Below are positions 1-31,739 of a stretch of DNA of 34,549 nucleotides, piece by piece. How positions within the stretch are numbered: position 1 is the stretch's first letter; each line of letters starts with the position of its first letter. This DNA comes from an uncultured bacterium (GTDB lineage Bacteria; Patescibacteriota; Minisyncoccia; Minisyncoccales; UBA5738): contig CAINCQ010000002.1 in the NCBI GenBank assembly GCA_903847095.1, forward strand, positions 1-34,549, written 5' to 3'. A program made the position numbers and the translations under genes. The notes beneath the pieces are model-generated. The model was not told the origin of the DNA. It ran no database searches and saw only the letters and a list, made by a program, of their open reading frames with translations.

Positions 1-294
1 CAATGGCCGTTACAATGGGTTGCAATATCGAGAGGTGGAGCAAATCCCATCAAAAACGGCCCCAGTTCGGATTGAGGTCTGCAACTCGACCTCATGAAGC
101 CGGAATCGCTAGTAAACGTGAATCAGCTACGTCACGTTGAATATGTTCCTGAGCCTTGTACTCACCGCCCGTCACGCCAAGCGAGCTGGGGACAGCCGAA
201 GTGCCCCGCGAGGGGAGCTAAGCTGGATTCAGTAAGAGGGGCGAAGTCGTAACAAGGCACGGGTAGGGGAACCTGCTCGTGGATCAATTAATTT
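1..294 (+). rRNA. rrs: 16S ribosomal RNA, 3' partial
   Basis: Conserved blocks GGAATCGCTAGTAA, CTTGTACTCACCGCCCGTC, GAAGTCGTAACAAGG and helix 45 GGGGAACCTGC...GGATCA; 5' end cut by window edge; 3' end estimated. Confidence 0.95.
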
Positions 295-430
295 ATTTTT
301 TGAGTGTCGGCTATAGTTGAGGAGTGAGAATTCTCTTCTTGACAATAAGACGCTGATCAATCCGTCTTTAAAGATTGGTCAATATAGTAGTTCGGGACGA
401 CTTCAAGTAATCCTTTGTGGCTTTCAAAAA

Positions 431-4007: not shown

Positions 4008-4082
4008 GGGCGCGTAGTTAAGTGGCATAACGCCGTCCTGATAAGACGGAGGCCGAAGGTCCGATTCCTTCCGCGCCCACCA
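4008..4082 (+). tRNA. tRNA-Ile (GAU), CCA encoded
   Basis: GGGCGCG/CGCGCCC acceptor; anticodon arm CCGTC-CTGATAA-GACGG; T arm GAAGG-TCCGATT-CCTTC; 3' ACCA. Confidence 0.9.
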
Positions 4083-4726: not shown

Positions 4727-7700
4727 ATGGTTCGGCGGCATTTAAAGATCGTTAAAGCGGGATTAACAGCAGCGTTTTTTTTGTTGCTTTTTTGGGTTGT
4801 AGGCGGACAAAACCTTATCACTCTGGCCGAAGATATTACGCCGTCTGGCAACGAGGCTGTCACGGAAAATCCGGTTTCAGCGGGGCAAGCGGTTAGCGGG
4901 GAAGTTAAAAGCGATCCGGCTCCGGCTCAAGATGTCGTTTTGCCGGAAGCCGCCGGTTTGCCGGCCGCGGTGGCCGGGGCAACTACGGAAAATCCCGAGC
5001 CCGACGCGCAGCCGAAAGACCAAGGCACAACGCCGGCAGAAGCAACTCCAACGAAAACAACTCCGGAGACGGATACCGTTCCGCCGGCCGAAGATGCCGG
5101 AAGCGAACAACCGCCGGCCCCAACGGTTCCGGAAAAAACTTCGGATGCGGTGCCGGAAACAACTCCGGCGGTAAACGTGCCCTCGGATGATGCGTCCAGT
5201 CCGAAAATTTCCGATTCTCCGGCTCAACAGCCCGCGACGGAAAAATCTTTGGAAGCTCCGGCTTCGGAACCGGACGCGCCAGGAAATGGAGCGCAAAAAA
5301 GCAAGGAAGCGCCTCTTCTTAATTTGTCAAAAAATGAAGACCAGGAGGTCATAATTTTGCCCTCCGCCATCGACGATAACCCGGCGACCGGCGCCGGAGA
5401 ATGGGAGAACTTTGGCGCGGCTTTCAATCATGATCTGGCGGATAACGCGACCCCCGGGGATTTTAACGAAAACAATTCCGCTTATTTAAAGATCGGGGCC
5501 GGTGATTCCGGGAAGCTCAAGACGATCACTTTTACCAAATTCGGATTATCCGGCAGTCAAGTGATCACCAATCTTCAGTTGCGCGCCTCGCTGGCGGTTT
5601 TGGCTCCGGTCAACAACAGCGGTGCGCAAATCCAGGTTGAAATGAATCCGGGTACCGGCAATAGCGATTCCTGGATATCGCTGGGGGAGATTCCGGCCGA
5701 CAAGGAGATTTCCAACGCCGCCAACGGCGGTTTTTTCCTGTTCTCAATGCCTCTGCCGGAGAGTTTAAGTGATCTTGAAAAAGCCAAAATACGTTTCAGC
5801 TATCAATCGCGGGAAAACGAACAGGTGGCGATTTATCTAGACTCGGTTTGGCTGGAAGCGGTTTGTCAAGCCTTTATCGGACCTAAATTAACGGATATTC
5901 TGCTTAAGTACCCGGTAGTAGACGAAAAGATACCGGTGGAAAATTTAATCCCCAAAAATCCCCTGCCGGTGCCCTTGGCCGGGGAATTGAGGTTTTTTCC
6001 GACGGCGTTGGATAATGAGCCGGTAAACAAATCTTTGGGCTGGCAGAATTCGGAAGCGGCTTTCAAGCGGGATCTTTCGGAAATTTCCGCAACGTCCGAT
6101 TTTAACCAGGACAATTCGGCCACCCTTCAGTTCGATAAAGATGGCACCGCCGGGCAGTCCAAAGCGGTCACGTTCACTGTTTTTGATGGCATTCGGGATG
6201 TCGCGGATAAAACCATTACCAATTTGCAGTTGCGCGCCTCGCTGGCGGCAATGGCCGGAAAAAACGAGGGCGGCAATGGCCAGATCGAAGTTGATTATCT
6301 GTCGGGTAAGGAGGGCGCATCGTGGATATCTTTAGGTTCCATTCCGGTTGGCGAGGGAATTTCCAACGCCGCCAACGGCGGTTTTTTCCTGTTTTCCTTG
6401 CCGCTGCCGGAAAACTCCGGCGACCTGGCGGCTGCCAAAGCGCGCTTCAGTTTCAAACCGCAAATTGGCGCGCAGGGGACGGTTTATCTTGACGCGCTGT
6501 GGCTGGAAGCAACTTACGAACCGCTTCCGACCAAAGAGGAAGTAATTGATGAAAAGAGGCAAAAGATATTGGATCGATTCTTCAAAAATAACGAAAATCC
6601 CACTTTTGTGTTCGCCAGCCTCGAAGATAAGAAGAATTTTTTCCAAAAGATTTTTTCCTGGGCAAAAGGCGAAAAAAAAGAAGTAACCGCCAAGCTGATA
6701 AATCCGCGCGAGGAAGAAACCGGCAACGGGATAACGATCGACGGCCAGACGGTAAAAATCGATAATTTAGACGCGCGCCAATTCCGCCCCGGCCGGTACA
6801 AGATAAAAATTTCGGTTAAAGAGGGCGACCAAGCGACGGAAGAGGAGCAGGAATTCGAATGGGGCGTATTGACGGTAAACAGCGATAAATCCATTTATAA
6901 AATTGGCGATACCGCTCAAATCGCTCTTGGCGTTTTGAATAAATACGGCCATACGGTTTGCGATGCCCAGGTTGTTTTATCGATAACCGACCCGGGCGGA
7001 AATACCACCTATCCGGAGGTGGCCTTCAGCGATGATTGCGAAATAGGCAACATAACCAACAAACCCGATTATACCGCCTCCTTTGCCACTGCGGCGGCCG
7101 GGACTTATAAGATCGACGTTATTGCCACTACCCCGGAAAGCACGCAAGAAATCACCGATTCTTTCGAGGTTAAGGATAGCGTTGATTTTGACGTATCGAG
7201 AACCGGGCCGACGCGCATTAATCCGACCGCCGAATATCAAATGCGGCTCAGGGTCGTAGCCAATAAGGATTATGCCGGTAAAATAATCGATTACGTGCCG
7301 GTGGATTTTGAGATCAATGCGCCGTCCGGTAACGATAATGCCTCAACGACGGTCGAGATTGACGGCAACCTGAAGAAAATATCCTGGGACGCGGATCTGA
7401 AAACCGGCCAGGTCTATAATTTTGGCTACACTTTTAAGGCGCCGGAGATCAGCCCTTATATTTTCCTGCTTGGGCCGTTGCGGATCGGAGATTTTTCCGA
7501 ACTGCGGCAATGGCAGATCGCATCCGATGCGGTTTATTATTCGGTTTCCAGCACCAACTGGGATGCCGATGGCGTTACTTGGTCTTTGAGTTCGGGCGGT
7601 TCGTCGACCAGCGCTCACCCCATCGCGGGCGATACCGCGATCGTTGAATTGGGCCACGCGGTTGTGGTAAACGCGAACGCGGCTTGCGCAACGTTAACTT

Positions 7701-10700
7701 TTGGAAGCGGTACCTCCGCCAACAATACGGTAACCATCAACGCTTCCTTGTATACACTGGCCGTGTCCGGCACGATTACCATTCCCAAGGCTAATACCGG
7801 TTACTCAAACACAATGGCCGTTGCTACCGGTATTTTAACCGCCGGGACCCTGGCTTTCACCAACGGCGGCGCCGCCGGCACCACACAACAGGTTACGATT
7901 TCCACCGGACATGCGACAATTACCGGCGATGTTACCCAAAGCGGCAGTACCGGCAGCGCTTCCATTATTTTTAGCAGTACCGGGACTTTGACCTTGGGCG
8001 GCGCGCTGTTCACTTTATCCACGGGCACCATGACGCAAGTTGCCGCCTCAACCGTGGAATATCACGGGACGGTCAACCAGACGATCCAAACATTTTCTTA
8101 TCGTAATTTAACGATCAGCAACAGCGGCGGTGCCGTGGCGGCCTTGGCTACGGCCACTCCTATCGTTAACGGAGCATTAACGGTCAATGCCGGGTCGATT
8201 CTCGACGTTTCGTATGCTTTGGGAGGAACCACCAAGCCCACCAGTTTGGCCTTGTATTGCGGCGCTACCACCGGCTCCGACATTACGGGTTCGGGCTCAA
8301 TAGCTCTGGGAGGAAATGTCACCGTGACAAGTGCTGGTACCGGTACCGACGGCGCGGTTGTTGTTCCGTCGATCGCCTTAGGCTCGACGCGGACTTTTAC
8401 GGTGGCTGACGACGGGAGCGCGGCCAATACCGATTTAACCCTTTCCGGGGCGGTTAGCGGTTCCGGTCTTGGGATTACCAAAGCCGGCGCCGGCCAGATG
8501 TATCTTTCGGCGAACAATACTTATACGGGAGCCGTAACGATCAGTGCCGGAACTATCATTGCCAATACTTTGGCCAATTCCGGGTCCAACAGTTCCTTGG
8601 GCACCGGCGGCGGAACGCCGGAGATTTCGATGGCGGCCGGCACAACTTTGCGATATGTCGGATCGGGGCACTCCTCCAGCCGCGCGATCACGCTCACGGG
8701 AACCGGGGTCACTCTTGACGCTGAAGGCTCCGGAACAATGACGTTGAGCGGCGCGGTGAGCGGCAGTACTTATGCCCTGGTGCTCGACGGGGCCGGTAAT
8801 GGGGCGGAAGGCGGGGTGATTGGCACAAGCACGGGTACCGTTACTAAAAATGGCGGCGGTACCTGGACCGTTTCCGGGAACAGTACGTACACTGGTTTAA
8901 CTACCATTAATGTAGGTACGCTAAAGCTCGGCGGCGTGGGCTCCGGATCGTATTCACCCTTGGGAACCACCGGCTCGGGCACCGTGGTTGCCGCCACCAG
9001 CGCGGCCTTGGATCTGGGCGGTTACCAGCTGGTGACCGCCGAAGCGCTGACTCTCAACGGCACCGGCGTATCCAACGGCGGCGCCTTGATGAATTCCGGC
9101 GCGGGAACTACTTACAGCGGCTTGATTACTCTGGGTAGCACCGGCGTCAGTATTTGTGGCGGTTCGGGCACGATCAACATCAGCAACGCCAGCACGATCG
9201 CCGGTTCCGGTTTTGCTCTGACGCTTTGCGGCGCGGCCGGCGGAACACTGGGCAGTATTCTGGGCACGGGCGCGGGTACCCTGACCGTCAATGCCAGCAA
9301 CGGCACCTGGATCCTTTCCAACTCCAATACTTATACCGGCCTGACGACGATCAGCGCGGGCACGCTTAAGCTGGGCGGTGATACGCCTTTGGGAACCACG
9401 GGAGCGGGCACCGTGGTTTCCGTCACCGGCGCGGCCCTGGATCTGGGCGGTTTTACGCTGGGTACTTCCGAAGCGCTGACTCTCAACGGTACCGGCGTAT
9501 CCGCCGGCGGCGCGTTGATGAATTCCGGCGGGGCAGCTACTTACACCGGTTTGATCACTCTGGGCAGCAGCGGTGTCAATATTTGCGGCGGTTCGGGTAC
9601 GATCAACATCAGCAACGCCAGCACGATCGCCGGTTCCGGTTTTGCTCTGACGCTTTGCGGCGCGGCCGGCGGAACACTGGGCAGTATTCTGGGTACGGGC
9701 GCGGGCACACTCACTGTCAGCAACGGCACCTGGATTGTTTCCAATTCCAATACTTATACCGGTTTGACCACGATCAGCGCGGGCACGCTTAAGCTGGGCG
9801 CTACGGGTGGTGCCACCTACACGCCGCTGGGAACCGTCGGCGGGGGTGTCCAGGTTTCCGCCACCGGCGCGGCCCTGGATCTGGGCGGTTTCCTGCTGGG
9901 TACTTCCGAGGCCTTGACTCTCAACGGTACCGGCGTATCTGCTGGCGGCGCGCTGATGAATTCCGGCGGAAACACTACTTATAATGGCGCCGTCACTTTG
10001 GGCAGCGCCAGCGTCATCGGTACAACCGGAAATATAATTTTGGGCGGCGGTATGACCGGGGGCGGATATGGGTTGACCAAAGTGGGCGCGGGCAGTTTAA
10101 GTTTGGGCAGTGGGACCGTGGCGTTGGGCGCGCTGACGGTCGGCGCGGGAACGCTCGTTTCAACTTCCGGCACCATGACTGTGACCGGCGACTTTGCCAA
10201 CAACAGTACTTTTACCCATAATTCCGGAACGGTTAATTTCAGCGGCACAGCGCAAAACATCAGTGGTTCCGGATCTTTGGCTTTTAATAATCTGACTTTA
10301 TCCAATTCCGGCACCAAGACTTTTTCCAAGCTTTTTTCGGTTGTGGCCAACCTGACGCTTAACGGTGCTCAAGCCAGCTTGGCAACCGGCACTACTTCTA
10401 CGTCAAACCAATTATATTTTGTTGCGGCTCTCCAACCGCCCGGTACTTTTGGTTCCACGAGCTCTGCGGCTACTTATAAAAACGATACTTATTTTGCCGC
10501 GACCAACGGTATTGTAAGCGTTGCCGCCGGAGGTTGCGTGCCCGGAACCTGGCAAGGGTCAACCAGTGCTTGGGCTACCCCGACCAACTGGTGCAACAAT
10601 ACTTTACCGGACGCGTCGACCGATGTTATCATTCCGTCGGCCGGCACTCAGCCGATCATCAGCGCGGCCGGCAGTCTTTGCAGAAACATCACTATCAACA

Positions 10701-13700
10701 GCGGCGCTTCGCTAACGATATCCGGCACTTACGGTTTAACGGTTAGTGGTAACTGGGTGAACAACGGCGGTACTTTTACCGCGAACAGCAGTACCGTAAC
10801 TTTCAATGGCGTTTCCAAAACCATCGGCGGCAGCAGCAGTACCACTTTTTACAACGTATCCACCAGCGGCAGTGCGACCATTACCACCGCTTACGCCACC
10901 ACCATCGGCGGCGCGCTTTCCATTGCCGACGGCACCACCTTTACCGCCGCGGGTTTTGACCTGACGGTGACCGGAACAACTACCGTAGGCGGAGGATCCA
11001 CCGGCAGTTTGGTCATCAGCAATGCCACCGGCGCCAAGACCTTTACCGGCGATGTGACTATCGCCGCGGGCGCGACCTGGAACAACTCAGCTAACGAAAT
11101 AGTCAGCTTTGGCGGATCGCTGGCCGTCAATTCCGCAGCGAGCAATATCACCTGGGGCACCGCGGCCCAGACCTTTACCGGCGCGAGCAAATCGATCACT
11201 ACTACCCAGACGTCGCAAACCTATATCATTCCTTACCTGTCGGTTACCGGAACTTTGACCAACAGTCTGGCCAGCACCAATGAGTTGACGGTTTCCACAA
11301 CCTTGGATGGCAACGGTGGATTGACCCAAGGTGCCAATGCCAATCTGAATATCGGCGGCACGTCGGGCATCACCACCCTGACTGCCAGCGCCTCGGGCAA
11401 CACCGTGGACTACACCGCCGCGGCCCAGACCGTGCACAGCAACACTTATTACAACCTGACGCTCTCGGGCAGCGGCACCGATGTTTTGCAATCCGGCACC
11501 ACGGCCGTCGGCGGCGACTTGATTTTGAGCGGCACAGTTGCCACCGCGACGGCGGCGAATTTAACCATTAGCGGTGCCCTTGGGATTAATAACGGCACCA
11601 CTTTTACCGCCGCGGGCTATGACTTGACGGTGACCGGTACTACCGTTGTGGGCGGCGGATCCACCGGCAGCTTGGTGATTAATTCGGCCACCGGCACCAA
11701 AACATTTGGCAATGTGACCATTTCCGCGGGCGCGACTTGGAACAATTCGGCCAATGAAATCGTCAGCTTTGGCGGATCACTGGCCGTCAATTCCGCGGCG
11801 AGCAATATTACCTGGGGCACCGCGGCCCAGACCTTTACCGGCGCGAGCAAATCGATCACTACTTCGCTGACGTCCCAAACCTACATCATTCCTTACTTGT
11901 CGGTTACCGGGTCTTTGACCAACAGTCTGGCCAGCACCAATACGTTGACCGTTTCCACAACCTTGGATGGCAACGGCGGATTGACCCAGGATACCAATGC
12001 CAATCTGAATATCGGCGGCACGTCGGGCATCACCACCCTGACTGCCAGCGCCTCGGGCAACACCGTGAATTACACCGCCGCGGCCCAGACCGTGCACAGC
12101 AACACTTATTACAACCTGACCTTATCGGGCAGCGGTACCGATGTTCTGCAAACCGGTACCACCGCCATCGGCGGCAACCTGACTTTGAGCGGTACGGTGG
12201 CCACGGCGACGGTAGTGGGCTTGACCGTAACCGGCAATGTTTCCCTCGGTAACGGCACCACCTTTACCGCCGCGGGATTTGACCTGACGGTGACCGGAAC
12301 GACCACCGTAGGCGGGGGATCCACCGGCAGTTTGGTAATCTCTTCGGCCACCGGCGCCAAGACCTTTACGGGCAATGTGACTATCGCCGCGGGCGCCACC
12401 TGGAACAATTCCGGCAATGAAATCGTCAGCTTTGGCGGATCATTGGCGGTCAATTCCGCGGCGAGCAATATCACCTGGGGTACCGCGGCCCAGACCTTTA
12501 CCGGCGCGAGCAAATCAATTACCACTAATTTAACTTCTCAAACCTATATCATTCCTTATCTGTCGGTTACCGGAACTCTGACCAACAGCTTAGCCAGTAC
12601 CAATACGCTGACGGTTTCTACCACTTTGGATGGAGGCGGCACGCTGACCCAGGATACCAATGCCAATCTGAATATCGGCGGCACGTTGGGCATTACCACC
12701 CTGACCGCCAGCGCCTCGGGCAACACCGTGAATTACACTGCCGCGGCCCAGACTGTGCACAGTAACACTTATTACAACCTGACCTTATCGGGCAGCGGTA
12801 CCGATGTTCTGCAAACCGGTACCACCGCCATCGGCGGCAACCTGACTTTGAGCGGTACGGTGGCCACGGCGACGGTAGTGGGCTTGACCGTAACCGGCAA
12901 TCTTTCTCTCGGTAACGGCACCACCTTTACGGCCGCGGGTTTTGACCTGACCGTTACCGGTACCACCACCGTAGGCGGGGGATCCACCGGCAGTTTGGTG
13001 ATCAACAATGTCAGCGGGACCAAGATCTTTACCGGTTTGGTAACCGTGGCCGCGGGCGCGACCTGGAACAATTCGGGTAACAGCGCGATTACTTTCCGCG
13101 GTGGTATCACCACCAGCGGTGCTTTCACCGCCGGTTCGGGCGTGCAAACCTTTGATACCAACGCGCAAAATCTGACCTGCACCGCGGCCAGTCTTTCTCT
13201 TCCCAATATGACGGTGACCACGATCACGGTAACCGATAAATGCACTGGGATCTATCCCTTGACCGTGAGCACCGCGCTATCGGGCACCGGCGGCCTGACC
13301 CAGGATACCAATGCCAATTTGTACATCGGCGGTACCTCGGGTATCACTACCCTGACTGCCAGCGCCAGTGGCAACACCGTCAATTATTCCGGCACCGCGC
13401 AAAACGTACACAATAACAGTTACCAGAATCTCACTTTATCCGGCTCGGGCAACAAGACCTTTGCCGGTGCCACCACGATCGCCGGAACGCTGGCCATTAC
13501 CGATACCGCGCTGGCCAATTTTGCGACCGGCGCCAACTCCACGGCCAACGCGCTGACCCTGGGCGGAGTCAGCGAGCCTTCCGGGACCTGGGGTTCCACT
13601 CTGGCCGCCAAAACCTACATCAACGATACCTACTTCGCGTCTTCCACCGGTTATGTGACCGTGGCCACGGGCTGCACGGCCGGCAACTGGCTGGGTACGA

Positions 13701-16700
13701 CCAGCACCGATTGGAATATCGCTTCCAACTGGTGCGGGGCAATTCCCGGGGCGACAACCGACGTTACCATTCCTTCCGGCGGCAACCAGCCGTCCATCGG
13801 CGCGGCCAACGGATTGGCGCGCAACCTCACCATCAACAGCGGCGCGACCTTAACGATCTTAAGCACCAACGGCTTAACGGTCAGCGGTAACTGGGCCAAC
13901 AACGGTGGAACCTTAACCGCCAATTCCAGTACCGTAACATTCAACGGTGTTTCCAAAACCATCGGCGGTTCGGGCAGTACCACTTTTTACAACGTATCCA
14001 CCGGCGGTTCGGCGACCATTACCACCGCTTACGCCACTACTATCGGCGGCGCGCTTACCATCGCCGACGGCACTACCTTCACCGCCGCGGGTTATGACCT
14101 GACGGTGACCGGTACCACCACCGTAGGCGGGGGATCCACCGGCAGTTTGGTGATCTCTTCGGCCACCGGCACCAAAACTTTTACCGGCGACGTGACTATC
14201 GCCGCGGGGGCGACCTGGAACAATTCGGGTAACGAAATCGTCAGCTTTGGCGGATCACTGGCGGTCAATTCCGCGGCGAGTAATATCACCTGGGGTACCG
14301 CGGCCCAGACCTTTACCGGTTCCACCAAATCGATCACTACCACCCAGACTTCCCAAACCTACATCATTCCTTACTTGTCGGTTACCGGGTCTTTGACCAA
14401 CAGTCTGGCCAGCACCAATAAGCTGACGGTTTCCACTACTCTGGATGGCGCCGGCGCGTTGACCCAAGATACCAATGCCAATCTGAATATTGGCGGTACT
14501 TCAGGAATTACCGGCTTGACTGCCAGCGCCAGCGGCAACACCGTGAATTACACCGGCACCGCGCAAAACGTTCATAACAACAGCTACCAAAACCTGACTT
14601 TATCCGGCTCGGGCAACAAGACCTTTGCCGGGGCAACGACAATCGCCGCGGGACTGGCCATTACCGATACTGCGCTGGCTAATTTTGCGACCGGCGCTAA
14701 TTCCACGGCCAACGCGCTGACCCTGGGCGGAGCCAGCGAGCCTTCCGGAACCTGGGGTTCCACTCTGGCCGCCAAAACCTACATTAACGATACTTACTTC
14801 GCGTCTTCCACCGGTTATGTGACCGTGGCCACGGGATGCACGGCCGGCAACTGGCTGGGTACGACCAGCACCGATTGGAACATCGCCTCCAACTGGTGCG
14901 GGGGAATTCCCGGGGCGACGACCGATATTACCATTCCTTCCGGCGGCAACCAGCCGTCCATTGGCGCGGCCGGAGGATTGGCGCGCGACATCACCATCAA
15001 CAGCGGCGCGACCTTGACGATCTTGAGTACTAACGGTTTAACGGTCAGCGGCAACTGGACCAACAATGGCGGAACCTTTACGGGTAACAGCAGCACGGTT
15101 ACTTTAAACAAAGCCGGAGGAACCACCCAGGCAATTTCAGGCGACACCAGTTTTTATAACCTTACCGCGACCGCGACCGCGGCCCGCACCCTGCAGTTCG
15201 CGGCGTCATCGGTTACTACGGTTACGCATTTATGGACAGTTACCGGTGCCAGTAACCAGTTGATAACGTTAACTTCATCGACAACGTCCCAATGGAGCGT
15301 TAACCCAACATCGGCTTCGATCTCTTACGTTGATTTGAATTATTCCAACAATACCAGCGGCAGTTTGATTTGCGCGACTTATTCGCAATCGACCTATAAC
15401 AATAATACCAATTGGGCTACGGGCGCCGGAAGCAGCTGTAACGCGGTTCCGACCTTCAATACCGGATTTGAACCGCACGAAGATCCCGTTTCTTACACTA
15501 CCACGCCAACCGACGTCGGCGATTACGTGACCTTTAAAGCTAAGGCTACCGATACCGACGGCAATCAATGGTATCTGGCCATTTGCAAAAGCGACGCCAT
15601 TACTACCAACAGCAACGCCGAGCCCACCTGTACGGGCGGGGACTGGGAGATATCTTCGGCTACCGATTCTGATACCGTCGCGACGGCCGCTTACCAGATT
15701 ACGGCCGGAGAAACCAGCGAGTCATACGATTGGTACGCGTTTGCCTGCGACAAGGTCGCGACATCCCCGGGATGTTCGCCAATGTCGAATAGCGGCACGG
15801 CAACAAATAACGGAACGCCGTTTAGCGTGAACCACGCGCCGGGTTTTACCGCTTCATCCAACGCGGGCAATAAAAATCCGGGCGCGCAGCAAACGGTCAC
15901 GGTTTCCAGCGGCCAATACAGCGACGGCGATAGCGCCGGCAGCCAGGATCAGGTGAAATTGTACGTGTGTCCGACGCAGGCGTTCACCGACGGGGCCAGT
16001 CCGCACTGCAACGTGACCGAATTATGCAGTTCCAGCCTTACTACTCCGGGCAGTCCCATGACCTGTAATTTTAATCTTGCCAATCCCCTTGCGCACGGTA
16101 CCAAGCATTATTATCCCTATGTTGCCGACAGTCATGGTTTGGCGAGCGGCGGAGCCGGTCAGGGCGAAGACAAAACTTATTCGGCGAACGATGTAGCACC
16201 GATAGTTTCGGGCACGCCGACATTCAACGGTTTATCGTCCACCATCGATCTTACCAACGAGGGCGGTACCACCGATATAGTGGTTACCGGCGTCGCCAGC
16301 GACGATAATCTTTGCGACGACCTGGACGCGGCCAATACTTTTGCCAATGCCTGGCTGACATCTTATACCGGCGCCGCTTGCGTTACGAACGCGGGCGCCG
16401 ATGCCAATAAATGTTATTTTCACGCAACCTGTACGCAGACCGGAAGCGATTCTTGCGCCCACGATGGCGTTGATAAAACCGCCGGTTTTTCGTGCACGAT
16501 CCATTTCCAATATTACGCCAATCCGACGGATACCGATTCGCCCTGGGACGGCGACAGCTGGACTGCCACCTTTATCCCGGGCGATGGAACGGGTCCTAGC
16601 GCTACCACCGGTAATTCCGGCGCCAAAACCCTGGACAGCTTCCTGGCCATGTCGTTAGAGACGGGATACGACGCGATTTCTTATCCTAACTTGAACGTGG

Positions 16701-17062
16701 GCGACACCACCGATCCTTTGTTGGAAAAAACCCACGTCGTGGCCAGCGGCAACGTGAGTCTGGACGCCACGGTTTCCGGCACGGATTTGACGAAAAGCGG
16801 GGCCAGCATCGGAGTGGGCTATCAAAAATACGGGCTGGGTACGAGCGCGCCGGCCTGGTCGGCGGGTACCGTGCTGTCGGCCAGCGACGCCGCGGTGGAT
16901 CTAAATTGTTGCAAAAGCGGTTATACCCAAACCCCGGCTTCGGCCCGCATCTGGTGGGGGATCAACATACCGTCCGGCAAACCCAGCGGATCGTACTCCG
17001 GTTCCAATACCATTACGGCGGTGGAAAATGCCTGGTCAAATAGCGGCGACTGGTGCGAGTAG
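4727..17062 (+). CDS. Giant secreted/surface repeat protein (4111 aa) with autotransporter-type beta-strand repeats and Cys-containing C-terminal module
   Basis: N-terminal hydrophobic signal; Pro/Ala/Thr-rich linker; two tandem ~180-aa domains; repeated NTYTGLTTISAGTLKLG motifs; long Gly/Ser/Thr-rich beta repeats; ends NTITAVENAWSNSGDWCE. Confidence 0.9.
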   Translation: MVRRHLKIVKAGLTAAFFLLLFWVVGGQNLITLAEDITPSGNEAVTENPVSAGQAVSGEVKSDPAPAQDVVLPEAAGLPAAVAGATTENPEPDAQPKDQGTTPAEATPTKTTPETDTVPPAEDAGSEQPPAPTVPEKTSDAVPETTPAVNVPSDDASSPKISDSPAQQPATEKSLEAPASEPDAPGNGAQKSKEAPLLNLSKNEDQEVIILPSAIDDNPATGAGEWENFGAAFNHDLADNATPGDFNENNSAYLKIGAGDSGKLKTITFTKFGLSGSQVITNLQLRASLAVLAPVNNSGAQIQVEMNPGTGNSDSWISLGEIPADKEISNAANGGFFLFSMPLPESLSDLEKAKIRFSYQSRENEQVAIYLDSVWLEAVCQAFIGPKLTDILLKYPVVDEKIPVENLIPKNPLPVPLAGELRFFPTALDNEPVNKSLGWQNSEAAFKRDLSEISATSDFNQDNSATLQFDKDGTAGQSKAVTFTVFDGIRDVADKTITNLQLRASLAAMAGKNEGGNGQIEVDYLSGKEGASWISLGSIPVGEGISNAANGGFFLFSLPLPENSGDLAAAKARFSFKPQIGAQGTVYLDALWLEATYEPLPTKEEVIDEKRQKILDRFFKNNENPTFVFASLEDKKNFFQKIFSWAKGEKKEVTAKLINPREEETGNGITIDGQTVKIDNLDARQFRPGRYKIKISVKEGDQATEEEQEFEWGVLTVNSDKSIYKIGDTAQIALGVLNKYGHTVCDAQVVLSITDPGGNTTYPEVAFSDDCEIGNITNKPDYTASFATAAAGTYKIDVIATTPESTQEITDSFEVKDSVDFDVSRTGPTRINPTAEYQMRLRVVANKDYAGKIIDYVPVDFEINAPSGNDNASTTVEIDGNLKKISWDADLKTGQVYNFGYTFKAPEISPYIFLLGPLRIGDFSELRQWQIASDAVYYSVSSTNWDADGVTWSLSSGGSSTSAHPIAGDTAIVELGHAVVVNANAACATLTFGSGTSANNTVTINASLYTLAVSGTITIPKANTGYSNTMAVATGILTAGTLAFTNGGAAGTTQQVTISTGHATITGDVTQSGSTGSASIIFSSTGTLTLGGALFTLSTGTMTQVAASTVEYHGTVNQTIQTFSYRNLTISNSGGAVAALATATPIVNGALTVNAGSILDVSYALGGTTKPTSLALYCGATTGSDITGSGSIALGGNVTVTSAGTGTDGAVVVPSIALGSTRTFTVADDGSAANTDLTLSGAVSGSGLGITKAGAGQMYLSANNTYTGAVTISAGTIIANTLANSGSNSSLGTGGGTPEISMAAGTTLRYVGSGHSSSRAITLTGTGVTLDAEGSGTMTLSGAVSGSTYALVLDGAGNGAEGGVIGTSTGTVTKNGGGTWTVSGNSTYTGLTTINVGTLKLGGVGSGSYSPLGTTGSGTVVAATSAALDLGGYQLVTAEALTLNGTGVSNGGALMNSGAGTTYSGLITLGSTGVSICGGSGTINISNASTIAGSGFALTLCGAAGGTLGSILGTGAGTLTVNASNGTWILSNSNTYTGLTTISAGTLKLGGDTPLGTTGAGTVVSVTGAALDLGGFTLGTSEALTLNGTGVSAGGALMNSGGAATYTGLITLGSSGVNICGGSGTINISNASTIAGSGFALTLCGAAGGTLGSILGTGAGTLTVSNGTWIVSNSNTYTGLTTISAGTLKLGATGGATYTPLGTVGGGVQVSATGAALDLGGFLLGTSEALTLNGTGVSAGGALMNSGGNTTYNGAVTLGSASVIGTTGNIILGGGMTGGGYGLTKVGAGSLSLGSGTVALGALTVGAGTLVSTSGTMTVTGDFANNSTFTHNSGTVNFSGTAQNISGSGSLAFNNLTLSNSGTKTFSKLFSVVANLTLNGAQASLATGTTSTSNQLYFVAALQPPGTFGSTSSAATYKNDTYFAATNGIVSVAAGGCVPGTWQGSTSAWATPTNWCNNTLPDASTDVIIPSAGTQPIISAAGSLCRNITINSGASLTISGTYGLTVSGNWVNNGGTFTANSSTVTFNGVSKTIGGSSSTTFYNVSTSGSATITTAYATTIGGALSIADGTTFTAAGFDLTVTGTTTVGGGSTGSLVISNATGAKTFTGDVTIAAGATWNNSANEIVSFGGSLAVNSAASNITWGTAAQTFTGASKSITTTQTSQTYIIPYLSVTGTLTNSLASTNELTVSTTLDGNGGLTQGANANLNIGGTSGITTLTASASGNTVDYTAAAQTVHSNTYYNLTLSGSGTDVLQSGTTAVGGDLILSGTVATATAANLTISGALGINNGTTFTAAGYDLTVTGTTVVGGGSTGSLVINSATGTKTFGNVTISAGATWNNSANEIVSFGGSLAVNSAASNITWGTAAQTFTGASKSITTSLTSQTYIIPYLSVTGSLTNSLASTNTLTVSTTLDGNGGLTQDTNANLNIGGTSGITTLTASASGNTVNYTAAAQTVHSNTYYNLTLSGSGTDVLQTGTTAIGGNLTLSGTVATATVVGLTVTGNVSLGNGTTFTAAGFDLTVTGTTTVGGGSTGSLVISSATGAKTFTGNVTIAAGATWNNSGNEIVSFGGSLAVNSAASNITWGTAAQTFTGASKSITTNLTSQTYIIPYLSVTGTLTNSLASTNTLTVSTTLDGGGTLTQDTNANLNIGGTLGITTLTASASGNTVNYTAAAQTVHSNTYYNLTLSGSGTDVLQTGTTAIGGNLTLSGTVATATVVGLTVTGNLSLGNGTTFTAAGFDLTVTGTTTVGGGSTGSLVINNVSGTKIFTGLVTVAAGATWNNSGNSAITFRGGITTSGAFTAGSGVQTFDTNAQNLTCTAASLSLPNMTVTTITVTDKCTGIYPLTVSTALSGTGGLTQDTNANLYIGGTSGITTLTASASGNTVNYSGTAQNVHNNSYQNLTLSGSGNKTFAGATTIAGTLAITDTALANFATGANSTANALTLGGVSEPSGTWGSTLAAKTYINDTYFASSTGYVTVATGCTAGNWLGTTSTDWNIASNWCGAIPGATTDVTIPSGGNQPSIGAANGLARNLTINSGATLTILSTNGLTVSGNWANNGGTLTANSSTVTFNGVSKTIGGSGSTTFYNVSTGGSATITTAYATTIGGALTIADGTTFTAAGYDLTVTGTTTVGGGSTGSLVISSATGTKTFTGDVTIAAGATWNNSGNEIVSFGGSLAVNSAASNITWGTAAQTFTGSTKSITTTQTSQTYIIPYLSVTGSLTNSLASTNKLTVSTTLDGAGALTQDTNANLNIGGTSGITGLTASASGNTVNYTGTAQNVHNNSYQNLTLSGSGNKTFAGATTIAAGLAITDTALANFATGANSTANALTLGGASEPSGTWGSTLAAKTYINDTYFASSTGYVTVATGCTAGNWLGTTSTDWNIASNWCGGIPGATTDITIPSGGNQPSIGAAGGLARDITINSGATLTILSTNGLTVSGNWTNNGGTFTGNSSTVTLNKAGGTTQAISGDTSFYNLTATATAARTLQFAASSVTTVTHLWTVTGASNQLITLTSSTTSQWSVNPTSASISYVDLNYSNNTSGSLICATYSQSTYNNNTNWATGAGSSCNAVPTFNTGFEPHEDPVSYTTTPTDVGDYVTFKAKATDTDGNQWYLAICKSDAITTNSNAEPTCTGGDWEISSATDSDTVATAAYQITAGETSESYDWYAFACDKVATSPGCSPMSNSGTATNNGTPFSVNHAPGFTASSNAGNKNPGAQQTVTVSSGQYSDGDSAGSQDQVKLYVCPTQAFTDGASPHCNVTELCSSSLTTPGSPMTCNFNLANPLAHGTKHYYPYVADSHGLASGGAGQGEDKTYSANDVAPIVSGTPTFNGLSSTIDLTNEGGTTDIVVTGVASDDNLCDDLDAANTFANAWLTSYTGAACVTNAGADANKCYFHATCTQTGSDSCAHDGVDKTAGFSCTIHFQYYANPTDTDSPWDGDSWTATFIPGDGTGPSATTGNSGAKTLDSFLAMSLETGYDAISYPNLNVGDTTDPLLEKTHVVASGNVSLDATVSGTDLTKSGASIGVGYQKYGLGTSAPAWSAGTVLSASDAAVDLNCCKSGYTQTPASARIWWGINIPSGKPSGSYSGSNTITAVENAWSNSGDWCE
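10931..12960 (+). repeat. Three tandem ~660-bp coding repeats (period 660-663 bp) plus the start of a fourth; another copy at ~14060-14640
   Basis: GGCACCACCTTTACCGCCGCGGG...GACGGTGACCGG recurs at ~10931, 11594, 12254, 12917 and ~14070; units encode near-identical ~220-aa sequences. Confidence 0.9.
13390..15110 (+). repeat. Higher-order ~1164-bp direct repeat inside the giant gene
   Basis: FAGATTIA...TYFASSTGYVTVATGCTAGNWLGTTSTDWNIASNWCG...GNQPSIGAA occurs twice, with aaaacctacat(c/t)aacgatac at ~13610 and ~14774. Confidence 0.85.
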
Positions 17063-17201: not shown

Positions 17202-18956
17202 ATGACAAAAAACAAAATCCGTTTGACGCGATTGATGGCCGGAATTCTCGCCTTGGCCATGACTCTTTTCCCGGTGCCGATATTTACCGAGGCGGATTTC
17301 GCGGCGCCGGTAACGACGGTTTCAGTGGCAAATACCGCTCCGACGATCAGTGTTGCTTACGAATCGCCGACTTCCGATAATACGACGCCGACCGATGTGG
17401 GCGACAATGTAACTATTTACGCTACGGGGAGCGATGTTAATGGCGACCAATACTGGCTGGCGGTTTGTAAGGGAGCGGGGATAACGAAAGGTACCAGCGG
17501 CGGCGCTCCGACTTGCAATACGGCGGCGTGGAAAATCGCGACTTCAAAACAGACGCAAGCCGTGGCGACTTCCGTCAGCTTTACGATTACTTCCGGTGAA
17601 ACGCTGGAAACGTACGATTGGTATGCCTACGTCTGCGACGATAATGCCGGGGACCAAAAATGTTCGGCCGCGGATCAGGGAAGCGGCGCCTCGGGTTCGC
17701 CTTTCAAAGTTAACCACGCGCCGGGTTTTACCGGTTCATCCAACGATGGCGCAAAAAATCCGGGCGCGCAACAAACGGTCACGGTTTCCAGCGGCCAATA
17801 CAGCGATGGCGATAGCTCCGGCAGCCAGGATCAGGTGAAATTGTACGTGTGTCCGTCGCAGGCGTTCACCGACGGAGCCAGTCCGCATTGCGATGCAACC
17901 GAATTATGCAGTTCCAGTCTTACCACTCCGGGCAATCCCATCACCTGCAATTTTAATCTTGCCAACCCGGTTTCGCACGGTACCAAGCATTATTATCCCT
18001 ACGTTGTCGATACTCACGGCTTGATGAGCGGCGGCGCCGGGCAGGGCGAAGACAAAACTTATTCGGCAAACGATATAAGGCCGACTTTCGCCTCGACGCC
18101 GACCTTGAACGGCGGGAGCGCCATTGGTCTTACCCACGAGAAGACTACCAATAATATCGATGTGATTGGTACGGCCACCGATGATAATGGTTGCGGTGAT
18201 TTGGTTGCGTCCAATACATACGCGGATGTCTGGCAGACCTCATTGACCAGAACCGGTTGCGACAGCGGCGGCGAAGCCAGCGGCAACAACTGTTATTACC
18301 ACGTGACGTGTGCGCTTGATACGGCAACCAACGATTGCACGGGAGGTAGCGACAAGGACGCGGGTTTTAAATGCACTGTTGCTTTCCAATATTACGCCAA
18401 TCCCACCGATACTTATTCGCCCTGGTCTACGGATAGCTGGACTGCCACTTTTATCCCCGGCGACGAACAAACGCTAAACGGGACGGGAGAAAAAAATTCC
18501 AACACGGTGGTAATGAACAGCTATTTAGCGATTGGCCTGGCCGACTCTCCTTATAATGCCATTGCTTACGGAAGTGTGGCGGCTGGCGCTCATACCACGC
18601 CTAATCTGCTTGATTTGACGCACATGAAAGCCACCGGAAATGTGAGTATAGACGCCAGTATTTCGGGCGATCCGATGACGGGACCGGGTACCAGCATACC
18701 GGCCAATAAGCAGAAATATGGCATCGGAGCATCCGCGCCGCTCTGGGGAGCCGGCGGAAACGCGGTACTTTCGGGAACGCCGACCCTTACCGCGCTGCAT
18801 ACTTGCAAAAGCGGATACACTCAGACGCCGGGCTGGAAATCGGTTTATTGGGGAATTGATATTCCGGCCGGACAGGTGGCCGGAGATTACACCGGATCAA
18901 ACACGATTACGGCGGTGGAGAACAATTGGTCGGGCTCCGGTTCTTGGTGCGAATAG
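17202..18956 (+). CDS. Secreted paralog of the giant protein's C-terminal module (584 aa)
   Basis: Signal peptide; VNHAPGFTGSSNDGAKNPGAQQTVTVSSGQYSDGDSSGSQDQVKLYVCPSQAFTDGASPHC... and terminal NTITAVENNWSGSGSWCE match the C-terminus of the upstream protein. Confidence 0.9.
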   Translation: MTKNKIRLTRLMAGILALAMTLFPVPIFTEADFAAPVTTVSVANTAPTISVAYESPTSDNTTPTDVGDNVTIYATGSDVNGDQYWLAVCKGAGITKGTSGGAPTCNTAAWKIATSKQTQAVATSVSFTITSGETLETYDWYAYVCDDNAGDQKCSAADQGSGASGSPFKVNHAPGFTGSSNDGAKNPGAQQTVTVSSGQYSDGDSSGSQDQVKLYVCPSQAFTDGASPHCDATELCSSSLTTPGNPITCNFNLANPVSHGTKHYYPYVVDTHGLMSGGAGQGEDKTYSANDIRPTFASTPTLNGGSAIGLTHEKTTNNIDVIGTATDDNGCGDLVASNTYADVWQTSLTRTGCDSGGEASGNNCYYHVTCALDTATNDCTGGSDKDAGFKCTVAFQYYANPTDTYSPWSTDSWTATFIPGDEQTLNGTGEKNSNTVVMNSYLAIGLADSPYNAIAYGSVAAGAHTTPNLLDLTHMKATGNVSIDASISGDPMTGPGTSIPANKQKYGIGASAPLWGAGGNAVLSGTPTLTALHTCKSGYTQTPGWKSVYWGIDIPAGQVAGDYTGSNTITAVENNWSGSGSWCE

Positions 18957-19146
18957 TTTTTTTCCTGGCAATTTTGCGAAATATCTGGTAAAGAGCGATC
19001 ATACTGTCGAATTAACGCGGGCGGAGGTTTAACTTTTTTATAGACCGCTGATTTTCCCAAGGAACCTAAAAGGGAGCCGGAAGCGAGCTTCCCGGGGGTC
19101 GCGGAAAGAGGGTAAACCCTTGGTTTCCGGTCTCGCAGAGCCGAAA

Positions 19147-19225
19147 GGAGTATTCAGGTACCGTTAATCTTTGAGGATGCTTTCTCTGGCCATTAGGCAG
19201 GGTTTAAAACCACGTCGGGCGAAAC
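19147..19225 (+). ncRNA. Structured leader element, copy A
   Basis: GGAGTATTCAGGTACC...TTTGAGGATGCTTTCTCTGG...CGTCGGGCGAAAC aligns to copy B at 19330-19413. Confidence 0.5.
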
Positions 19226-19329
19226 GCTATCCGGAACATATAATTGATTATTTTATAGATCACGGGCTTGCCCGTGGAACATAAAATGTAGCCAGAGGCT
19301 ACCTTCCCGCATTATGCGGGAAGAAATGA

Positions 19330-19413
19330 GGAGAACTTAGGTACTCCGGAAGTACTCTTCGAGGATACTTCCTCTGGTCGGAGGGCGTGGTTTCATACCA
19401 CGCCGGGCGAAAC
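19330..19413 (+). ncRNA. Structured leader element, copy B
   Basis: GGAGAACTTAGGTACTCCGGAAGTACTCTTCGAGGATACTTCCTCTGG...GGCGTGGTTTCATACCACGCCGGGCGAAAC; three consecutive hairpins. Confidence 0.5.
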
Positions 19414-19442
19414 AACATTTGGAAAATATATATTTGATTTTT

Positions 19443-20363
19443 ATGTCGAACTATAAGTTGCCATATTTGGTTGGAATCTTTTGTTTATATTTACTGCTGG
19501 TTTTGCCTTGCCCGGCTGGCGCGTTTGGGATTTCGCCTCCGCACGTGGTCAACGACCGTCTTTTTCCCGGGGCTCATTATGAACAGCAAATAACGCTTTC
19601 GCGCACCGACGAGGAAAAAGGCGTGAAATGCAAAGTGGAATACGATATTCCCGGTTTTGAAAAATGGATTACGCTTGATCCGGGAAACGAATTTGTGATT
19701 CCGGCGGGAGAGAGAGTAGCTAAACTGGTGGTAAAAGTGGACGTGCCCAAAGACGCGAAGCCCGGGCGGATAACCGGGAATTTGCGGATCACGGCTGCGC
19801 CTTTGGAGCCGGTAGTCGGCAAGATCAATATTGTTCTTGGCGCCCAGGTAGCCATCGATTTGGTCGTGACCAGCGAAAAATTCAGCGAAATGTCGGTGCT
19901 CCAGGTAAAAATCAACGACATCGAACCCGGGTGGAAAGTGAAAGTGGACATGAAAGTCGCGAATAAGGGAAACCAGCCCATTACGCCCGACCGGGTAGTG
20001 ATCGATGTTTATGATTCCAGCTTTAAAAATTTAATTTTATCGGCCCATCAGGACAGGCTGGCCAAAGTAAAAGCTTTCGAAACAAAGGAAGTTTCAGCTT
20101 ATTTCGACCAAAAAAAGCTGGAAGTCGGCCAATATTGGGGAGACGTGAAGGTTTACCGGAATGGGGAGGTTGCCTGGGAGGAAAAGGCGATTTTCACGGT
20201 TCAACCGAAGGGAACGCTTCCGCCTCAGCCCAAAGAGCCGGCATTCGATTTGGACACCATGCCTTTATGGATAATTTATTCGGTAGTTTCGGCCGTTGTT
20301 CTTATTCTGCTCGCGGTTATTTTTATTACGATAAAAAAGATCAGAAGAAAAAAACATAATTGA
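19443..20363 (+). CDS. Exported protein with beta-sandwich-like ectodomain and C-terminal TM anchor plus basic tail (DUF916/WxL-locus-like)
   Basis: Signal peptide; FGISPPHVVNDRLFPGAHYEQQITLSR...PAGERVAKLVVKVDVPKDAKPGRITGNLRI; C-terminal LWIIYSVVSAVVLILLAVIFITIKKIRRKKHN. The track opens it at 19419. Confidence 0.75.
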   Translation: MSNYKLPYLVGIFCLYLLLVLPCPAGAFGISPPHVVNDRLFPGAHYEQQITLSRTDEEKGVKCKVEYDIPGFEKWITLDPGNEFVIPAGERVAKLVVKVDVPKDAKPGRITGNLRITAAPLEPVVGKINIVLGAQVAIDLVVTSEKFSEMSVLQVKINDIEPGWKVKVDMKVANKGNQPITPDRVVIDVYDSSFKNLILSAHQDRLAKVKAFETKEVSAYFDQKKLEVGQYWGDVKVYRNGEVAWEEKAIFTVQPKGTLPPQPKEPAFDLDTMPLWIIYSVVSAVVLILLAVIFITIKKIRRKKHN

Positions 20364-20378
20364 TCTGTGGCGACCGAT

Positions 20379-21875
20379 ATGATTTTTTGGTTGAAAAAAA
20401 ATGCGCTATTGCTGTTGTTTTTTACGCTGGCAGGATTGATTGGCAATCCTGTTTTTTTGTCCCAGCCGGTTTTCGCGCTTGGAATACCCACGTCGATCAG
20501 TATTACGGTTTGCGGCGATCACATAAAGCAAGGAAATGAGTTTTGCGATGAGGGAAGCGATAATAACAAAGTTTATGTTTATGGCGCCAATCCCAAGTAT
20601 TGCAATGTTGATTGCGCTTCCTTTGCTCCGGCCTGCGGCGATACGGTAATTCAGAGCGGGTTTGGCGAGATTTGCGACAGTGCTTCCGGCAGTTGCATGG
20701 TCGGATTATATTCAGGGACTAAAGCCTGCAATGATACATGTGATGCTTGGCTTGATTGCCAAGCGACGGAATACTGCGGAGACGGTATTAATAACGGCGG
20801 GGAAACCTGCGACGGCGGTACCCAAAATTGCACGATCAACGGTTATAACGGCAAAAAAGCCTGTCTTGGCGATTGTACCGGCTGGGGAGATTGCGTAGCC
20901 AGCGACAGTTGCGGGGACAAAATAATCAACGGCGGCGAGATTTGCGACGGCGGTACCCAAAATTGCACGATCAACGGTTATAACGGCAACAAGACTTGCA
21001 ATTCATCTTGCAGTGGGTGGAACCTTTGCCAGACAAGCGAATATTGCGGCGATGGTATCAAGAACGGAAACGAACAATGCGATGGCGGTTCAAGCTGTAC
21101 ATCATTGTGTCAAATAAAGTCTGGTGGAGGTGGCGGCGGTGGAGGAGGTGGAAGTTCGTCGAGCGTAGCTACCAAAGTCATCATGGAGGGCAAGGCGTAT
21201 CTTAAAAGCTCGATTACGATTTTAAAAGACGGCAAAGTTACCACAGTTACGAATGCCGATGAAAATGCTGACTTTAGAGTCGAAATAAGCGATGTAACCC
21301 CGGGTGTTACGACTTTTGGCGTTTGGGCCAAGGATAATGAAGGGCGAAAATCCATTACGTTCAGCTTTACGGTCAATGTTCAAGCAGGTACCACTATCAC
21401 GATCAGTGATATTTTCCTTCCTCCAACCATCGAACTGGATAAGACGGCGGTGCAAAAAGGCGAGATGATAACGATCGAAGGCACGACTGCTCCCTTAAGC
21501 AGAGTTGATATTGTGGTCCAGTCGGCTCCGCCCGGGATTACCAAGACGGTCGCGACCGAAAAGAACGGGATTTATTCTTACAATTTCGATACGAGCGTTT
21601 TGGAAGAGGGCTCCCATCTGGCCAAGGCCAAAGCAACATCGCCGGGAGGGTTAATGGGCAGTTATTCGCAAAGCATGACGTTCACGGTGGGTAATACGGG
21701 TTTTAATTGTCCAAAAAATTCGGATATCAACCGGGACAAAAGGGTGAACTTGGTCGATTTAAGCATTCTGCTTTACAATTGGGGAGTGCCGAAAAACGCC
21801 AATGCCGATATTAATTGCGATAAAAAGGTGAATCTTATCGACTTTTCCATAATGATGTATTATTGGACCGGATAA
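20379..21875 (+). CDS. Secreted Cys-rich-repeat protein with poly-Gly linker, Ig-like region and C-terminal type I dockerin
   Basis: CGDGInNGGEtCDGG repeats (Myxococcus Cys-rich/DUF4215-like); G10 linker; C-terminal DINRDKRVNLVDLSILLYNWG...DINCDKKVNLIDFSIMMYYW duplicated Ca-binding loops. Confidence 0.85.
   Translation: MIFWLKKNALLLLFFTLAGLIGNPVFLSQPVFALGIPTSISITVCGDHIKQGNEFCDEGSDNNKVYVYGANPKYCNVDCASFAPACGDTVIQSGFGEICDSASGSCMVGLYSGTKACNDTCDAWLDCQATEYCGDGINNGGETCDGGTQNCTINGYNGKKACLGDCTGWGDCVASDSCGDKIINGGEICDGGTQNCTINGYNGNKTCNSSCSGWNLCQTSEYCGDGIKNGNEQCDGGSSCTSLCQIKSGGGGGGGGGGSSSSVATKVIMEGKAYLKSSITILKDGKVTTVTNADENADFRVEISDVTPGVTTFGVWAKDNEGRKSITFSFTVNVQAGTTITISDIFLPPTIELDKTAVQKGEMITIEGTTAPLSRVDIVVQSAPPGITKTVATEKNGIYSYNFDTSVLEEGSHLAKAKATSPGGLMGSYSQSMTFTVGNTGFNCPKNSDINRDKRVNLVDLSILLYNWGVPKNANADINCDKKVNLIDFSIMMYYWTG
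20808..20990 (+). repeat. Two identical ~47-bp segments, 135-bp period, in Cys-rich repeats
   Basis: TGCGACGGCGGTACCCAAAATTGCACGATCAACGGTTATAACGGCAA at ~20808 and ~20943. Confidence 0.85.
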
Positions 21876-21934
21876 ACCGATTCATCCAAACGGAAGTTTA
21901 GAAATTTTTTTGGAAAAATATATAATTTATAAAA

Positions 21935-22915
21935 ATGCCAGCGTTAAAATCAGCCATTATAATACTGATTTCCCTTTTCTGTTTTTTGTTTTCCGGCGCC
22001 AACGCCGTTTTTGCGGCGGTCGTTTATTTGGATCCGCCCCAAGGAAATTTCCAGTTCGGCCAGACTTTTATCGTTTCGGTCAAGATCGATACCGGAGGCG
22101 AATGCGTAAATGCGGCCAAAGTGGATATCGCTTTTGACCAGAATGTAATGAGGTTTGTTGATTTTGACCGGGGAAATTCCATCATTTCTTTATGGATGGA
22201 CGCGCCCAGCGGTCAAACCGGATCAAGCGGAAAGATCTCGTTTAGCGGTGGCATGCCCGGCGGTTATTGCGGAGAGATAGCGGGCGTTTCCGGCGAAAGC
22301 AACGTTTTGGCCAAACTTGTGTTTAAAACCGCGGAAATGAGAGTGGTCGCGGATACGGAGCCGGTTTCTGCGACAGTGGATATTTCGGATAGTTCGGAGG
22401 TTTATTTGCATGATGGAGCCGGGACAAAAGCCGCGCTTGTCGCGCGCGGCGCGGTATATAATTTTTTTCAACATACAGGGTTGCCCCGCGACGAATGGCA
22501 GGAAGCAATAAGAAACGACAATACACCTCCCGAACAGTTCGAATTAAAATTGTCCCGCGATCCCTTGATGTTCGATAACCGGTATTTCATTACTTTTATT
22601 ACTACCGACAAACAAACCGGTATTGACCGCTACGAGGTATCCGAAACACCCTTGGGCTCAAAACAAGAAAAGGATCTTTGGGTGGTGGCCGTGAGTCCCT
22701 ACGCATTGAAAGACCAGGCTCTTGGCAGTAAAATAAAAGTGAAAGCCGTTGACAAAGCCGGCAATGAAACTATTGCCGAATTTACTTCTGGCGTAGCGCC
22801 AACTCCCGTAAGGCCGGTCAATTTGGTTTATATGCTCGCGTTCTTAGTCGCGGTTATTGGCATCGGCTGGTATCTGGTCAAAGCGTTCAAAAAAAGATCA
22901 AAGCGCCATGAATAG
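21935..22915 (+). CDS. Membrane-anchored cohesin-like domain protein
   Basis: Signal peptide; VVYLDPPQGNFQFGQTFIVSVKIDTGGECVNAAKVDIAFDQNVMRFVDFDRGNSIISLW... cohesin-like pattern; C-terminal TM and basic tail. Confidence 0.78.
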   Translation: MPALKSAIIILISLFCFLFSGANAVFAAVVYLDPPQGNFQFGQTFIVSVKIDTGGECVNAAKVDIAFDQNVMRFVDFDRGNSIISLWMDAPSGQTGSSGKISFSGGMPGGYCGEIAGVSGESNVLAKLVFKTAEMRVVADTEPVSATVDISDSSEVYLHDGAGTKAALVARGAVYNFFQHTGLPRDEWQEAIRNDNTPPEQFELKLSRDPLMFDNRYFITFITTDKQTGIDRYEVSETPLGSKQEKDLWVVAVSPYALKDQALGSKIKVKAVDKAGNETIAEFTSGVAPTPVRPVNLVYMLAFLVAVIGIGWYLVKAFKKRSKRHE

Positions 22916-25721: not shown

Positions 25722-26129
25722 TTGCAAGACGAATTAAGACGATTGCGGGATCAGAGCGAGGAAGTTTTCGAAGATCTTTTGATCGTTGACGCGCGGATCA
25801 AATTGGGCAGTTCCGAAGAAGCGGTGTTCTGGTTTGCCGGTGTTTCGGAAGAGGTAAGGCGAGCTGTTTTGCTTTCGGTGAATTTGGGTATGATTATATC
25901 CTATACGAAAGCCGGTTATTGCGACCGATGTATTCTCAAACGGCTTTGTCGTTCGCCATACTCGCTTTTTATGCTTTTCGACAAGATGGAAGGCGCTCTT
26001 ACTGACTTGGGCTGCGAGATCGCGGAAATGGAAGCCAAAGGGATGGTTCCAAAAGAAATTGTTGAAATATTGAGAAAGAAGCATGGGACGCCGGATCATC
26101 ACGGATCCAGAACCGAAATAAAAACATAG
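25722..26129 (+). CDS. Small hypothetical protein, TTG start
   Basis: GAGGAGG 8 nt upstream of TTG; terminator AGGGCGG-aaaaat-CCGCCCT overlaps the stop. Confidence 0.65.
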   Translation: MQDELRRLRDQSEEVFEDLLIVDARIKLGSSEEAVFWFAGVSEEVRRAVLLSVNLGMIISYTKAGYCDRCILKRLCRSPYSLFMLFDKMEGALTDLGCEIAEMEAKGMVPKEIVEILRKKHGTPDHHGSRTEIKT

Positions 26130-26226
26130 GGCGGAAAAATCCGCCCTTTTCTTGACTTTGCGCCGATAATGTTTAATATTTACCATTGTGACTAGCTGTT
26201 TTAAAAATCGTTAAAGAGAGGATGTC

Positions 26227-26742
26227 ATGAAGAAACTGGATAATATTGATATATTGGGTTCGGATGGAAAGCCCGCGCCGCCGAATGTCAAAAAGGAACT
26301 CATTGTTTTACTGGCGTCTTTTGATCTTTGCGTTAACGGGAACGGATTGCCGTATGAAGCCCTGGAAATTGCCCGCGTGCTTTCCGCGTTTTTTGCGGAA
26401 AATAAAGTTTCCTGCAAACCCGGCTGTTCTTTTCCGGATTGGGCCGACGCGCTGGTAAAGTTTTATTTGGCCAATGGCATGATCAAGATGGCGATTGAAG
26501 CCACTGCGATTCGCGGCCGGCCTCTGGACGTAAAAGAACTGGATATCTATCGCTTGGCCCTTGTCAAAAAAAAGGCCTATCAAGCCCAATGCCTTGAGTT
26601 GGCCGAGATGTTAAGCCAGACCGGAATGATCGTGCAGGCGGCAGCCGCGGCGAAGCTTGCCGGACAGAATTTACCGGATAGCAGTTTGAATTCGATACGC
26701 CAGCAAATCCTTATGGGAAATCCCAATTTGAATTGTGATTAG
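26227..26742 (+). CDS. Small helical-repeat hypothetical protein
   Basis: SD AGAGAGG; two repeats containing IRGRPLDVKELDIY and LAGQNLPDSSLNSIRQ; terminator AGAACGG-ataaag-CCGTTCT. Confidence 0.7.
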   Translation: MKKLDNIDILGSDGKPAPPNVKKELIVLLASFDLCVNGNGLPYEALEIARVLSAFFAENKVSCKPGCSFPDWADALVKFYLANGMIKMAIEATAIRGRPLDVKELDIYRLALVKKKAYQAQCLELAEMLSQTGMIVQAAAAAKLAGQNLPDSSLNSIRQQILMGNPNLNCD

Positions 26743-26891
26743 AACGGATAAAGCCGTTCTTTTTTGTTATCGGCTCCGCGCCTTAGCGTTGCGCCAAGGG
26801 AGAACAACAGTGTTGTTATCACGTCTTTTGGTTGATTTTTTGGGAGAAAAGGATTACGATTCCGACAGTTTTACCAAAGAGGTGTTGCTTG

Positions 26892-31068: not shown

Positions 31069-31140
31069 CGGTTATTTTTTTTGTTTGACTTTTCGGGTAA
31101 ATCGAATAAAATCAATCAAACTCGTTTTAGAAGTGGTGTT

Positions 31141-31666: not shown

Positions 31667-31739
31667 GGGCCTTTAGCTCAGTTGGTAGAGCGCCTCATTT
31701 GCATTGAGGAGGTCACCGGTTCGAGTCCGGTAAGGTCCA
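31667..31739 (+). tRNA. tRNA-Ala (UGC), CCA not encoded
   Basis: GGGCCTT/AAGGTCC with G3:U70; anticodon arm CCTCA-TTTGCAT-TGAGG; T arm ACCGG-TTCGAGT-CCGGT; followed by CAT rather than CCA. Confidence 0.95.

Follow-up and report, generated by a model that had tools for sequence, protein, structure and literature searches.

The window, a stretch of 34,549 nucleotides, begins contig C2 of a bin (G000; 1.35 Mb, 42 contigs, 96% complete; the bins analyzed here are drafts), and the first feature on its + strand is a bacterial 16S rRNA gene of which only the 3′ end is present, positions 1-294 matching Rfam family RF00177 (253.8 bits, E 5e-77; match 1228-1533). The 3′ domain of the gene occupies 1-286, and its 5′ part forms the end of another contig of the same bin, C20, which overlaps the start of C2 by exactly 76 bases. 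The joined C20 and C2 gene aligns to the intact 16S of G001, another bin of the same genus (g1), with 96.2% identity over 1784 nt and no break. Helix 45 (258-281, +; CACGGGTAGG-GGAA-CCTGCTCGTG) is paired throughout around a GGAA loop, and its pairs are kept in the Rfam alignment, which bears out the initial annotation in describing the helix as intact and compensated. The anti-Shine-Dalgarno (anti-SD) is among the most conserved bacterial motifs. Here it is missing, as had also been claimed: GGATCA (281-286) is followed by ATTAATTTATTTTTTGAGT where CACCTCC is expected, and the 16S continues after helix 45 as GGATCA-ATTAATTTATTTTTT, with an AU-rich 3′ tail (287-305, +) replacing CACCUCCUUU. Further downstream on the same strand lie a conserved trailer (306-410) and a probable intrinsic terminator read from the sequence, a GC-rich hairpin with a T run (428-457). 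No 23S gene follows the 16S and this terminator; the 23S is found at G000:C30:5727-8732, unlinked to the 16S on C20 and C2, and tRNA-Ile(GAT) (4008-4082) and tRNA-Ala(TGC) are located downstream of the 16S, not in a 16S-23S spacer.

An assembly error or misjoin at about position 286 had been put forward for the unusual tail, and the split of the 16S gene over two contigs would fit it. The relatives rule this out, and we see practically no chance that it is correct. In G001, the tail is identical, the 16S is unbroken inside a 78-kb contig, and identity to the window is 95.7% through tail and trailer; the single-contig genome G002, from the same family, carries a nearly identical tail, as does G004. 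Moreover, the leader on C20 pairs with the trailer on C2 in a single covarying stem, an independent tie between the two contigs. As in the SD-scarce organisms of class iv (PMC10783764), CCTCC is absent from the single-stranded 3′ tail of the 16S, and the variant is common to close relatives, indicating that it is not a sequencing error. The suggestion that the true tail lies elsewhere found no support, since neither the leader, the 16S nor the trailer of G000 contains CCTCC, which also rules out an alternative anti-SD within them.

Comparing the rrs tails of relatives, as had been advised, showed that the loss extends beyond the genus: of the 29 tails that could be read across the order, the window's among them, not one has CCTCC. 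In a sample of 287 genomes from the phylum, those outside the class as a rule carry CCTCC, replaced in occasional cases by a close variant. Within the class (241 genomes, 146 tails listed, assigned by reading the tails), 61 have CCTCC, 17 a one-letter variant xCTCC, 9 a degenerate form such as CTTCT, and 59 none, showing that the anti-SD eroded in several lineages with the intermediates still visible. Five members of the class (G443, G460, G448, G369 and G343) have tails like GGATTTTCTCCTTTTAAGGA, in which a UCUCC variant precedes a sequence complementary to it; the residual anti-SD of such tails could fold back on itself. In one genome of the order, G012, inserted sequence seems to split the 16S near helix 44/45, making its tail unreadable; the SD excess of G012 is also among the strongest in the order (92 vs. 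32, by the spacing control described below).

The tail is followed by a highly structured trailer. It opens with a conserved GUCGACU element (here GUCGGCU, 306-312), identified from the trailer alignment and included in our covariance model R1, and continues with a hairpin that has a long covarying stem and a GAAUUC-type loop (313-346; 8 of 10 pairs changed on both sides, 94% of cells paired), then with an H-type pseudoknot (347-380; stem A 347-352/363-368, stem B 355-361/374-380). Compensatory changes affect 5 of the 6 pairs of stem A and 6 of the 7 of stem B, a score matched in none of 500 shuffles. Across 25 aligned trailers, 90.2% of pair cells are standard and 19 of 23 pairs have changed on both sides, with 118 double-change cells compared with 33.5 +/- 5.7 after shuffling (0/500), and slid structures score far lower. 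The R1 model matches the window at 306-380 with 69.5 bits, whereas a search of Rfam for the trailer family gave no match at or near the gathering score. Finally, positions 392-410 form the 3′ arm of a pre-16S processing stem, pairing with the leader TTTTTTGAAGTTGTCTCGA located upstream of the 16S on C20; tested over its 19 bp, this stem is 94.5% paired, with 35 double-change cells compared with 9.6 for shuffled partners (0/1000). Such complementarity of leader and trailer, with compensatory changes, is that of the ordinary bacterial processing stem flanking the 16S, a substrate of RNase III; unlike in the ordinary case, a conserved hairpin and pseudoknot are inserted here between the predicted mature end and the stem.

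R1 matches 35 of the 241 genomes of the class and, in the phylum sample, members of this class only. The element is present in G504, G494, G393 and G514, all of which have an intact anti-SD, and so predates the loss. In members bearing the anti-SD, the precursor tail, anti-SD included, folds with the trailer into a hairpin of about -12 to -14 kcal/mol; the same fold is weak in the window (-1.5 kcal/mol). The very strong conservation and covariation immediately after the tail might be taken to mean that the trailer is retained in the mature 16S as an added 3′ domain that takes over the role of the anti-SD in initiation. We regard this as highly improbable: the trailer leads on to a leader-trailer stem of the kind usually seen at precursor ends that are removed, and its occurrence in relatives with intact CCUCC led us to reject it as an SD substitute. 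Most probably the trailer functions in maturing the 3′ end of the 16S, its pseudoknot being an apparently undescribed rRNA-maturation element.

A tail without anti-SD raises the question of the SD motifs themselves. Four had been listed in the window: those at 25707 and 26215 do stand at SD distance before candidate starts, while those at 542 and 24831 precede no ATG, GTG or TTG at SD spacing. Genome-wide enrichment, proposed as a check, was measured by counting GGAGG, AGGAG or GAGGT at -17 to -4 of ATG-start genes over 629 kb of G000 and 655 kb of G001. Motifs precede 12.8% of genes in G000 vs. 1.3% in the background and 8.7% vs. 1.0% in G001, compared with 2.4% vs. 0.9% in G002 and 5.7% vs. 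2.2% in G504, whose anti-SD is intact; the listed members of class iv have SD:antiSD interaction in 2-8% of genes (PMC10783764). The motifs peak at -14 to -10 and are found on most G000 contigs, including C20, which bears the 16S; on the G001 contig holding the 16S, just 2 of 88 genes have one. Close to the start codon, upstream regions are rich in A, which reaches 0.4-0.5 at -6 to -3.

The motifs are unevenly distributed among genes. Core genes of G000, i.e., those with homologs in G002 or G504, are essentially devoid of them (5/135, 3.7%), while they are found in 65 of 411 other genes (15-16%): 20 of the 137 shared with G001 only and 45 of the 274 without homolog in the samples. The SD-bearing genes are thus mostly accessory. 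These genes do not form a single paralogous family, as they fall into 67 separate families, and we rejected the idea that they are mobile or phage genes after scanning 30 of them, in which the matches were to ordinary enzymes, SPFH proteins and glycosyltransferases and many genes had no Pfam match. Among 187 orthologs with a common start in G000 and G001, 13 have an SD motif in G000 and 17 in G001, with 9 in both compared with 1.2 expected (hypergeometric P 2e-8), at an upstream identity of merely ~0.41 (41-42%). SD pentamers recur in the partner species in 55% of cases vs. 28% for other purine pentamers (p=3e-4). Several of the ortholog pairs with SD motifs lie on matching contig stretches, making vertical inheritance likely.

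To extend the comparison to the class, AGGAGG located 4-8 nt before ATG was counted against the same pair 24-28 nt apart; this spacing control was used because a reversed-pattern control is biased by the frequencies of ATG and GTA. The median ratio is 1.82 in genomes with an intact anti-SD (n=61) and 1.89 in those lacking it (n=59; p=0.94), the genomes not being phylogenetically independent. In the family of the window, an excess is seen in G000 (98 vs. 43) and G001 (61 vs. 24), and none by this control in G002-G004. A search of G000 for bS21 (PF01165) gave no match, this family being highly divergent here; weak PF01165 matches are found in 49 of the 61 anti-SD-intact and, somewhat more rarely, in 36 of the 59 anti-SD-absent genomes (p=0.027).

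Taken together, these results make it very probable that a lineage of Patescibacteria underwent a genuine and old loss of the anti-SD and relies mainly on SD-independent initiation. The tail is genuine and common to all readable members of the order, in a 16S whose helix 45 is intact and whose leader and trailer are conserved, and the core genes essentially lack SD motifs; their initiation must be SD-independent. The unusual initiation that the initial annotation had listed as its last option is thus supported by core genes without SD, together with other genes that truly retain the motif. Most starts would be selected without pairing between rRNA and mRNA, by an unstructured A-rich start region with the initiator tRNA and initiation factors, while the hairpin and pseudoknot of the trailer, older than the loss, may help bring the ends of the pre-16S into contact and cut them. 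Judging by the distribution of Era, the class is probably Paceibacteria. Era, a GTPase reading GAUCACCUCC, is mostly absent in Paceibacteria (PMC12641178), which would be in keeping with a weaker constraint on the tail.

Loss of CCUCC has precedents, having been reported earlier in a few other CPR lineages, among them Campbellbacteria, Wolfebacteria, Absconditabacteria and Peribacter (PMC10783764). Like these, the organisms studied here are reduced bacteria with a tail devoid of CCUCC and core genes devoid of SD; unlike in these, the loss is found in every readable tail of an order of many families, and SD motifs are conserved in the accessory genes of one genus. A diverged tail after an intact helix 45 is also found in the anti-SD-less bacteria of PMC6107228 (Chryseobacterium, Mycoplasma, Carsonella and others), which reportedly also lack a recognizable SD, whereas g1 retains AGGAGG at SD spacing. 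In Flavobacterium johnsoniae, most genes likewise start without SD pairing, due to a pocket of bS21, bS18 and bS6 (PMC9976891); however, Flavobacterium possesses CCUCC and hides it, while here there is no CCUCC to occlude.

If SD reading had simply been lost, the motifs would not be expected to persist and be conserved before ~9-13% of the genes of g1, and this counts against the loss reading. One candidate, that the new tail acts as a shifted anti-SD, was rejected, as upstream complementarity to the AU-rich tail was borderline compared with shuffled tails and alike in the four genomes tested. It is conceivable that a second 16S gene with CCUCC, also raised in the initial annotation, was missed by the assemblies, and that a minor population of ribosomes reads the SD-bearing accessory genes. 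The conservation in two species of motifs complementary to the canonical tail would agree with this, and the exact 76-base overlap at which the window's gene is broken, resembling a branch of an assembly graph, leaves it a small opening; we nonetheless consider it improbable, since searches of G000 and G001 found a single 16S in each, with the G001 copy unbroken in its 78-kb contig, and a second gene would have to be missing from two independent bins.

A serious possibility, though we would not bet on it, is that the g1 motifs are relics or imports, brought by accessory genes from SD-using bacteria and kept for a while, unread. The preponderance of accessory over core genes among SD carriers and the class-wide SD excess, independent of anti-SD state, point to this. 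Against it stand the 9 of 13 SDs shared in orthologs despite the low upstream identity, the conservation of SD pentamers beyond that of purine controls, and the matching contig stretches suggestive of vertical inheritance. More tentatively, and on balance unlikely, the motifs may still be read and selected in g1 without a 16S anti-SD, GGAGG before accessory genes being recognized elsewhere on the ribosome, by another RNA or by a protein; such reading would amount to a two-class translation programme in this genus. That SD motifs are equally common with or without the anti-SD, and conserved in one genus lacking it, runs counter to the published rule by which SD disappears together with the anti-SD, and it makes what SD does beyond 16S pairing open to testing. 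Returning to the loss itself, a class in which the anti-SD is intact, half-eroded or gone is a natural experiment on how initiation changes.

The rest of the window holds several unusual loci. A giant adhesin-like cluster adjoins the 16S gene: a single ORF of 4111 residues (4727-17062, +), with a signal-like start and many autotransporter-type repeats, is followed by more large surface-type proteins (17202-24704), the only Pfam match being a weak one to MG2. Several ORFs of 135-181 aa (25722-27377 and 31081-31602, +) are helical with similar-looking repeats, possibly constituting a lineage-specific family; the one scanned had no Pfam match. Finally, a large serine recombinase (31667-33254, -; Resolvase/Recombinase/Zn_ribbon_recom) overlaps tRNA-Ala(TGC) (31667-31740) at its 3′ end, and the locus looks like an element integrated at this tRNA gene.
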